Positions 21,523 through 24,029 of a stretch of DNA of 64,000 bases are shown here, one piece after another. Every line of letters starts with the position of its first letter. Positions within the stretch are counted from its first letter, which is position 1. The notes beneath the pieces were generated by a model that had not been told where the DNA came from, did not search any database, and saw only the letters and a list, made by a program, of their open reading frames with translations. The stretch is from Phycisphaerales bacterium. GTDB lineage: Bacteria > Planctomycetota > Phycisphaerae > Tepidisphaerales > Tepidisphaeraceae. Location: NCBI GenBank assembly GCA_020853095.1, contig JADYZN010000056.1:1-64000 (forward strand), given 5' to 3'. A program made the position numbers and the translations under genes.

Positions 21523-23097
21523 TCAGGGTTCCAGCAACGATCGTCCGGTCATTTCCGCGGGTTTGGGAAGATTCAGCAGATCGAGGATGGTGGGGGCGAT
21601 GTCGGCGAGGCGGCCTCCTTCGCGGAGCTTTTTGCCGCGCAGCCGGTCATCGACGACGATCAGGTCCACATCATAGGTGGTGTGCGCGGTGTGGGGGCCG
21701 CCGGTTTCAGGGTCGATCATCTGTTCGCAGTTGCCATGGTCGGCGGTGATCAGGGCGATTCCGTTGTGACGTTGCAGCGCCTGGAGGATTTTTCCGACGC
21801 AGACATCAACGTGTTCGACGGCCTTGACGGCGGCAGCCAGCACGCCGGTGTGGCCGACCATGTCGCCATTGGCGAAATTGACGATGATGCAGTCGTACTG
21901 TTCGGAATCGATGCGTTTGACGACTTCATCGGCGATGCCGTAGGCGCTCATCTCCGGCTGCTGGTCGTAGGTGCTGACCTTGGGTGAGGGGATGATCTGG
22001 CGGTCTTCGCCGGGAAATGGGTCTTCGCGGTAGTCGTTGAAGAAGAAGGTGACGTGGGGAAATTTTTCGGTTTCAGCGCAGCGGAACTGCCGCAGGTGGT
22101 GTTTGGCGAGATACTCGCCAAGGATGTTGGCCATCTTGGGCGGCTTGGGATAGGCCACGTGGACGGGCAGTCCCTGCTCGTAGGCGGTCATGGTGCAATA
22201 AAACAGCGGGAGTTTGGCCCCGCGATCAAATCCGGCGAAGTCGTCGAGGACGAACGCCTTGGTCAATTCGCGCGGGCGGTCGCCACGATAATTGTAGAAA
22301 ATGATCGAGTCGCCGCCGCGAACCGTCGCCAGCGGAGCATCCTGTTGGTCGCAGATGACCGACGGGATGACAAATTCATCGCCGGACATGTTTGGCTCGG
22401 TGGGGTGGTCGTAATAGTGGGAAATGGCCGCCTCGGCGGTGTGGAATTTGGGGCCGTCGCCGTTGGCGATCGCGCGATAGGCCTTTTCGACGCGAGGCCA
22501 GCGGTTGTCGCGGTCCATGGCGTAATACCGCCCGCTGACGGTGGCGATCCGCCCGACGCCGAGCTGTTTCATTTTCCCCTCGACCTGTCGGACGTATTTC
22601 AGGCCATAGGAGGGGGGCGAGTCGCGCCCATCGGTGAATGCGTGCAGAAAGACGCGGGTCAACCCCCGCCGCTGGCACAATTCCAAGCATCCGTAGAGGT
22701 GTTCGAGCAGCCCGTGAACGCCGGCATCCGAGACGATTCCGAACAAATGGAGGTTGGAGCGGTTTTCCAGGGCGTGGGTGACGGCCGCGTTGAGCTGGGG
22801 GTTGTCGAAAAATTCGCCGGAACGAATCGCCTTGGTGATGCGGACGGATTCCTGATCGACGATCCGCCCGGCGCCGATGTTCTGGTGGCCGACTTCGCTG
22901 TTGCCCATGGTTCCTTCGGGCAGGCCGACGTCAAAGCCGCTGGTGTGAATCTGAACGTGGGGGTAATCGGCCAGGAGTTTGTCGTCCACCGGGTGCCTGC
23001 CCAGATGCACGGCGTTGGAGTTGTCCCACTTGGGATAGGGGTTGTGACCCCAGCCATCGCGGATGATCAGCACGAGCGGACGTTTGACGGTGGACAT
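21523..23097 (-). CDS. gpmI: 2,3-bisphosphoglycerate-independent phosphoglycerate mutase
   Basis: A 524-residue two-manganese enzyme that interconverts 3- and 2-phosphoglycerate in glycolysis. The N-terminal IRDGWG motif gives the first metal Asp. The phosphorylated serine sits in MGNSEVGHQNIGAGR. Later metal motifs are NFANGDMVGHTG and TADHGNCEQM. The ATG at 23097 gives the normal opening MSTVKRPLVLIIRDGWG; an upstream in-frame start adds 11 residues. Its stop lies 4 bp from the stop of the convergent GGDEF gene. Confidence 0.95.
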   Translation of the reverse strand: MSTVKRPLVLIIRDGWGHNPYPKWDNSNAVHLGRHPVDDKLLADYPHVQIHTSGFDVGLPEGTMGNSEVGHQNIGAGRIVDQESVRITKAIRSGEFFDNPQLNAAVTHALENRSNLHLFGIVSDAGVHGLLEHLYGCLELCQRRGLTRVFLHAFTDGRDSPPSYGLKYVRQVEGKMKQLGVGRIATVSGRYYAMDRDNRWPRVEKAYRAIANGDGPKFHTAEAAISHYYDHPTEPNMSGDEFVIPSVICDQQDAPLATVRGGDSIIFYNYRGDRPRELTKAFVLDDFAGFDRGAKLPLFYCTMTAYEQGLPVHVAYPKPPKMANILGEYLAKHHLRQFRCAETEKFPHVTFFFNDYREDPFPGEDRQIIPSPKVSTYDQQPEMSAYGIADEVVKRIDSEQYDCIIVNFANGDMVGHTGVLAAAVKAVEHVDVCVGKILQALQRHNGIALITADHGNCEQMIDPETGGPHTAHTTYDVDLIVVDDRLRGKKLREGGRLADIAPTILDLLNLPKPAEMTGRSLLEP

Positions 23098-23227
23098 GAA
23101 ATTCCTTTCGGCGAAATCGACCTGATTCATCTTACGCGGCCGTCGAATCGCCTCAAGCGCACGCGACCGTGGACGCGAACTCGGCGTGTCGGGTCAAGAA
23201 AAAAATGTTGTGAAACATAAAAAATCA

Positions 23228-23256
23228 TTGACTCTATTTTTGTTCGGCCTTAAATT
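23228..23256 (+). promoter_or_regulatory. Strong sigma-70 type promoter for the Lys-rich peptide gene
   Basis: TTGACT at 23228-23233 and TAAATT at 23251-23256 are separated by exactly 17 bp, close to consensus. A transcript starting near 23263 would reach the perfect ribosome site AAAGGAGGTGA at 23266-23276 almost at once. Confidence 0.65.
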
Positions 23257-23283
23257 TGCGCGCAGAAAGGAGGTGACAGCGCC

Positions 23284-23355
23284 ATGGCAGCTAAGAAGAA
23301 AGCCGCTAAGAAGTCGTCCAAGAAGACGACCAAGAAGACGACCAAGAAGCGGTAA
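23284..23355 (+). CDS. 23-residue lysine-rich histone-tail-like peptide
   Basis: An ATG at 23284 opens 23 codons: MAAKKKAAKKSSKKTTKKTT followed by KKR. Every residue is Ala, Lys, Ser, Thr, Arg or the initiator Met. It has the best expression signals in the window: a near-consensus promoter, a full AAAGGAGGTGA ribosome site 10 bp from the ATG, and a strong terminator downstream. The composition matches C-terminal tails of bacterial histone H1-like and HU-like proteins, so binding to nucleic acid is likely. It stands alone and is not fused to a DNA-binding domain. It is too short for routine gene callers. The function is inference. Confidence 0.72.
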   Translation: MAAKKKAAKKSSKKTTKKTTKKR

Positions 23356-23478
23356 GTCGATCGAATGATCGCTTGCGGCCGGAGACGTGGCTCCAACACT
23401 CCGGCGAACTTCAGGTCAGGATTCAAATTGTCACCGATCGTTTTGGGCCTGGCTCCAACCAAAGGCCACGAAACACAA

Positions 23479-23516
23479 AGAAACCTTCCCAGCCACGGCG
23501 GAAGGTTTCTTTTTTT
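23479..23516 (+). terminator. Rho-independent terminator
   Basis: An 11-bp perfect stem AGAAACCTTCC / GGAAGGTTTCT with a 10-nt loop is followed by a run of seven T. It ends the transcript of the Lys-rich peptide gene and insulates the GYF/TM2 gene that starts 52 bp later. Confidence 0.9.
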
Positions 23517-23567: not shown

Positions 23568-24029
23568 ATGGGTTATTTTCTGGGCGATGGCGGCGTTCAA
23601 CGCGGGCCGTTTGAGATCAACCAACTGGCGGAGCAGGGCCTTCGCGCCGACACGCTGGTCTGGAAGGAGGGGATGCCGCAGTGGCAGGCCGCGGGGATGA
23701 TCCCGGAGCTGCAATCGCTGCTGCAATCCCATCCCCAACCCGCGCCGACGCCCCAGGCGGTTCCCGTCGCGTATTCCAACATGCCCGCCTACCAGCCGGC
23801 CCAGAGCAAGAAGGTTCTGGCGGGTTTGATGGGCATCCTTTTTGGCGGCTGGGGGGTGCACAAGTTCATCCTGGGAATGCCGGGGACCGGATTTTTGCAG
23901 ATATTCATTACGTTCGCCACCTGCGGCCTGGGCGGATTGATCGGGTTCATCGAGGGGATCATTTACCTGACCAAGACCGATGAACAGTTTTATTATCAAT
24001 ACATGGTGCAGAAGCGCCAGTGGTTTTAA
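23568..24029 (+). CDS. GYF_2 and TM2 domain membrane protein
   Basis: A 153-residue protein. The first 55 residues form a GYF_2-type domain (GYFLGDGGVQRGPFEINQL and LVWKEGMPQWQAAGMIPEL), which usually binds proline-rich peptides. A Pro/Gln-rich linker follows, then a TM2 domain of two membrane helices (KKVLAGLMGILFGGWGVHKFILG and then LQIFITFATCGLGGLIGFIEGI) with the family's conserved G-x-H-x-F turn. It is probably a small inner-membrane protein of unknown role. I chose the ATG at 23568 because longer frames run back through the terminator at 23479-23516. proB starts 16 bp downstream and may be co-transcribed. Confidence 0.85.
   Translation: MGYFLGDGGVQRGPFEINQLAEQGLRADTLVWKEGMPQWQAAGMIPELQSLLQSHPQPAPTPQAVPVAYSNMPAYQPAQSKKVLAGLMGILFGGWGVHKFILGMPGTGFLQIFITFATCGLGGLIGFIEGIIYLTKTDEQFYYQYMVQKRQWF

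Follow-up and report, generated by a model that had tools for sequence, protein, structure and literature searches.

Between positions 23228 and 23516 of a 64,000-nucleotide stretch from a Phycisphaerales contig (the whole of the DNA that was analyzed, here called the window), a promoter, a ribosome site, a very short lysine-rich reading frame and a terminator are packed into about 290 bases. The question is whether so small a segment is a gene at all and, if it is, whether the peptide, the RNA or both are what has been kept. With somewhat better than even confidence, we read it as a single-copy micro-gene for an abundant, disordered, nucleic-acid-binding polycation, whose mRNA would end in a stabilizing or recognition structure; the rival readings are weighed below where the evidence on them is given.

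The unit in the window

The unit begins with a putative sigma-70-like promoter on the forward strand (TTGACT-N17-TAAATT, 23228..23256), in which the -35 hexamer TTGACT (23228-23233) and the -10 hexamer TAAATT (23251-23256) agree with the consensus at 9 of 12 positions; two sites of this grade were found in 1.2 kb, against 0.5 expected. The Shine-Dalgarno sequence AGAAAGGAGGTGA (23264..23276, forward) is perfectly complementary, over 13 nt, to the 3' tail of the 16S rRNA of this same organism, and it precedes a forward ORF of 23 codons plus stop (23284..23355), which runs from an ATG at 23284 to a TAA ending at 23355. Its predicted peptide, MAAKKKAAKKSSKKTTKKTTKKR, consists of A, K, S, T and R in addition to the initiator Met, and of nothing else. 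Beyond two further hairpins, termed H1 and H2, a forward terminator hairpin (23477..23516) has a 13-bp stem, a 2-nt 5' bulge, a GC(CACG)GC cap and a T tail. The hairpin proper (23477-23512) folds at -18.8 kcal/mol (z -5.0) and is followed by the T run, and the 259-nt transcript region as a whole folds 5.9 SD below its shuffles. A simple terminator scan did not pick up the terminator of this unit, probably because of the 2-nt bulge. The original prediction had placed a promoter with a 17-bp spacer, a Shine-Dalgarno sequence, a 23-codon lysine-rich ORF and a T-tailed terminator in this interval, and each of them is there; the ribosome site, which it had called perfect, is stronger than it had noted.

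Several counts bear on whether these signals came together by chance. Of all ATG ORFs of 15-40 codons in the window, this one alone reaches 40% Lys, and 40 Markov windows of equal size yielded no ORF that does. AGGAGG stands in place before none of the 78 window ORFs of at least 200 codons (unfiltered ORF list). The 3.6-Mb genome has three copies of the 11-nt core of the Shine-Dalgarno sequence, AAAGGAGGTGA: one complements the 3' end of the 16S rRNA, one is a chance-looking site, and one is that of the micro-gene. A chance origin of the unit was rejected on the simulated windows and on class-wide pattern counts, given below, that had no control matches.

Conservation in the family and the class

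The original prediction had proposed a search for conserved copies downstream of gpmI. The gpmI-adjacent regions of relatives do carry the same Lys-ORF unit, but the orientation was wrong: gpmI (21523-23130, minus; PF06415) begins roughly 150 bp left of the unit and reads away from it, so that the unit lies upstream of gpmI and is divergent. A covariance model built from the 3' part of the unit, when searched in 26 genomes of the window's family, found one copy each in 21 of them, at 66-143 bits. The unit is therefore not indispensable, being absent from the other five genomes (three of which are incomplete assemblies). Replacement of the missing unit by long HC2-like proteins was considered and set aside, as the cases are not comparable: in G012 the protein looks like a DksA-type fusion, and in G017 it stands at an incomplete contig end. 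The G012 locus (L269, on G012:C92) has a Lys/Ala-rich N-terminal region fused to a DksA/TraR-type-looking C-terminus. The terminator core CTTCCNNGCCACGGYGGAAG has exactly one match in 16 of the 26 family genomes, and a reversed-control search in the same genomes never matched; in all 16, including units that do not adjoin gpmI, a Lys-ORF lies about 200 nt upstream of the exact terminator.

Among the 21 family members, TTGAC is kept at -35 in every one, while the -10 element is mostly TACATT or TAAATT; the Shine-Dalgarno sequence contains GGAGG in all, GAAAGGAGG in 20 and GAGAGGAGG in one. The family peptides are 18-37 residues long and start with Met-Ala, their ORF lengths vary by whole codons, and the pattern of Lys pairs is retained. 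Between two genomes of the window's genus, the ORF differs at one silent base. Across the 21 family ORFs, differences at the first, second and third codon positions stand at 0.239, 0.143 and 0.366, and single-base codon differences divide into 769 synonymous and 315 non-synonymous, counts that lend support rather than form a test, the pairs being non-independent and the composition biased. Comparison of these relatives shows selection on the reading frame. The original prediction had staked its case against frameshifted or non-conserved ORFs in close relatives, and start and frame are kept there; its description of a complete transcription unit agrees with the conservation of the whole unit.

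The same comparison bears on the reading that the transcript is a purely non-coding RNA and the ORF a spurious feature of its purine-rich stretch. The RNA part is indeed structured and conserved, but the third-position bias, the whole-codon indels and an ATG and Shine-Dalgarno sequence that are always kept argue against such an explanation, as does the persistence of the Lys-ORF in families without H1 and H2, and it is strongly disfavored.

Outside the family, the nine weak matches to the covariance model that were inspected each lie 3' of a Lys-rich ORF, eight of which were recognized by the ORF pattern and one (L075) by eye. A strict pattern (perfect ribosome site, ATG-GC and KK-xx-KK), whose counts are lower bounds although some matches are other proteins (L091), was found in 122 of 397 Phycisphaerae genomes, at one place each among the matches listed, and in 3 of 229 genomes from the rest of the phylum; its reversed control had no matches in the class genomes. 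Class-wide, the shortest predicted peptide has 12 residues (MAKKKKAAKKKK) and the longest 129; K predominates in them, alongside A, T, S, V, P and R. In family f20 (L083-L094), a conserved stretch, roughly AAGGATTTNNTTAGCC, stands immediately upstream of the ribosome site and possibly represents a different promoter or leader. Judged by its sequence, the unit is a genuine micro-gene, single-copy and retained throughout Phycisphaerae. Standard annotation would miss its peptide, as had been predicted, and a gene whose product has only 12-37 residues can thus apparently be retained throughout a class, one copy per genome, and yet escape annotation.

Structured RNA and the terminator cap

The original prediction missed a conserved structured RNA 3' of the ORF, in which two stems show strong compensatory change and the loops carry CGUGGCUCC and UGGCUCCAA. 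In the window, H1 (23378..23405, forward) pairs 23378-23384 with 23399-23405 and has CGTGGCTCC in its loop (23386-23394), and H2 (23446..23467, forward) pairs 23446-23449 with 23464-23467 around the loop TGGCTCCAAC. Two-sided changes occur in 17 of 24 pairs in the MAFFT alignment and in 19 of 24 in a model-fitted alignment; in the latter, which leans to structure and includes one spurious antisense row, the covariation score is 0.449, against 0.177 +/- 0.014 for shuffled and at most 0.104 for slid alignments. All 7 pairs of H1 have two-sided changes, as does every pair of H2 counted in the model alignment. RNAalifold, run on the model-fitted alignment, recovered H1 and the terminator and not H2, which marks H2 as the weaker helix. 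In contrast to the changing stems, the loops are near-invariant (CGUGG in H1 and GGCUCC in H2). Comparison of the aligned units shows selection on RNA structure. An Rfam search of the unit returned no family at its gathering score (best 18.3 bits, against 55).

The best rival to a polycation gene with a stabilizing mRNA structure arises from these loops: a dual-function RNA, possible though doubtful, which would encode the peptide and also use two exposed (G)UGGCUCC loops to base-pair with mRNAs in trans. UGGCUCC is carried by each of two distinct covarying hairpins, as is usual for a repeated seed, and its CUCC complements the GGAG at the heart of ribosome sites, like the C-rich seeds of other small RNAs. 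The unit is also free-standing, with its own terminator, and its anatomy parallels that of VcdRP, which combines a 29-aa peptide with a conserved four-cytosine seed (PMC8672173). Both have a small transcript with its own promoter and terminator, an ORF of about 20-30 codons and conserved sequence outside the ORF; here, however, the peptide is predicted to be polycationic, Rfam has no match to the RNA and the likeness is drawn from sequence signals only. Against it, the motif is lost from H2 in L066 and altered in H1 in L057, and H1 and H2 were seen in the window's family only, whereas the terminator cap alone is kept class-wide. An equally tentative form of this idea holds the dual function to define the class, with one transcript that would both provide the main free polycation peptide of the cell and, by way of its two UGGCUCC loops and its CACG-capped terminator hairpin, regulate other messengers or its own translation. 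For a putative pairing between the ribosome site and the H1-H2 linker, the mean z is -0.54, and only 2 of 21 members are individually notable. A kissing contact between CGUGG of the H1 loop and CCACG of the terminator was discarded as a candidate, since both are near-invariant and allow no test of covariation, and the cap is kept where H1 is absent.

All 21 family units have GCC[A/G]CGG in the terminator cap. Among 55 loci of other families, 6 of which were chosen through the covariance model and are biased towards the cap, a script found a stem, a 2-5-nt bulge and GC(CACG)GC at 29, in 14 families, so that the cap is common to 15 families with the window's included. The CACG cap fits an UNCG-like (YNMG) tetraloop, of which CACG is a known example (Du et al., 2003, as cited in PMC5311481), and one relative has CGCG, which is also YNMG. 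YNMG tetraloops are a structural motif rather than a family; here, by contrast, the loop sits on a terminator with a 2-5-nt bulge beneath and is conserved gene-specifically. A generic terminator loop was rejected, because in six genomes the terminator-forming matches to GCCACGGC plus T tail were those of this gene where checked. In G001, G033, G042 and G115, the terminator-like match is that of the Lys-ORF gene, and in the window's genome (G000) the other matches do not fold as such terminators. In the genomes checked, comparison shows the cap to be specific to the putative micro-gene. A contig scan with the terminator pattern gave mostly chance matches and, among the matches listed, one true match, in a genus relative. 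Some members of f16 (L095-L101) have another shared loop, CUCAUCCAC, on the gene's terminator in place of GCCACGGC, and most f20 members have terminator loops of yet other kinds. At L249, L250, L074 and L078, a second GCCACGGC motif lies upstream of the terminator, apparently in a hairpin.

The peptide, its neighbors and candidate roles

Pfam and NCBIfam profiles gave zero matches to the 23-mer window peptide. Of the longer relatives tested, two scored 29.6 and 22.2 bits against PF07382 (HC2), where the cut-off is 40; over the HC2-type profiles, the weak matches of longer class members lie at about 19-30 bits, below cut-offs of 40, 80 and 135 bits. The H1-like proteins of the HC2 type (PF07382; NF038052, NF038053) are likewise disordered Lys/Ala/Thr/Pro repeats; the present peptides, on the other hand, are free-standing, 18-37 residues long in the window's family and followed by a conserved RNA structure. 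The original prediction was right that the peptide resembles an H1-type tail in composition; by score it falls outside HC2. A literature search, with most subscription journals outside its coverage, found no description of the micro-gene, and with no match above cut-off in Rfam, Pfam or NCBIfam, the peptide and the RNA both appear undescribed.

The favored mechanism would run as follows. A strong, constitutive-type promoter would yield an mRNA of about 260 nt, on which the maximal Shine-Dalgarno sequence would load ribosomes onto an ORF of 18-37 codons (12-129 elsewhere in the class). The product would be a poly-lysine peptide, disordered and abundant, which would bind polyanions in the manner of H1-like tails, with the DNA of the nucleoid or RNA as the likeliest partner. 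The conserved 3' structure would stabilize the mRNA and/or offer a site for recognition, and the transcript would end at the hairpin-capped terminator. High expression is suggested by the strong signals and polyanion binding by the composition; peptide length is loose while Lys content is kept, which is more in keeping with a sequence-tolerant binder driven by charge than with a specific ligand. The peptide thus probably binds DNA or RNA, and the transcript may also be a regulatory RNA; from the structure of its 3' part, we infer that this part controls stability or acts in trans. Against this explanation, a peptide with a specific function would be expected to vary less than from 12 to 129 residues and to keep some fixed motif, 12 residues are few for condensing DNA, and two conserved RNA loops exceed the needs of a plain mRNA.

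The phylum of the Phycisphaerae has unusual, condensed nucleoids. For the class, the peptide would be a concrete candidate for a small factor that acts on the nucleoid or binds RNA, paired with an undescribed conserved RNA element, and the low-complexity tail of H1-like proteins could evidently exist alone. An improbable variant keeps the same peptide and makes polyphosphate its polyanion, with a role on granules or in their spacing. AlgP, a DNA-binding protein, localizes to polyphosphate granules, and its H1-like, Lys/Ala-rich C-terminal KPAA-repeat tail, a polycation similar to the present peptide, is needed for granule spacing (PMC9239181). That tail has 154 residues and is fused to another domain, whereas here the tail alone would be the gene product. 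Moreover, nothing at the locus suggests polyphosphate, and many relatives have ParA and VanZ as neighbors rather than polyphosphate kinases.

A co-directional ParA-type ATPase gene (AAA_31) stands behind the terminator in 13 of the 21 family genomes, and families f6 and f10 have it there too; next after ParA comes a VanZ-like gene in f1 (L271) and apparently in f6. The place of ParA would suit a leader peptide or attenuator, in which ribosomes translating the Lys codons would decide whether transcription passes the terminator into the following gene. We regard attenuation as very unlikely, since another gene follows the unit in the window's genus and in most other families. In the window's genus, a GYF_2 and TM2 membrane protein (23568-24026, forward) is encoded directly behind the unit, a gene not found there in the other family members with ParA in that place; the window's genome has parA in front of vanZ on another contig (G000:C67:15624-16406, L283), without the unit. 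In addition, the 120-150-nt stretch between ORF and terminator, with its two conserved hairpins, is unlike classical attenuators. The linkage of the unit with ParA is old but breakable, and it hints at a connection of the preferred polycation with the nucleoid. In relatives, an orphan ParA-type ATPase lies directly 3' of the micro-gene at L271, L272 and L273.
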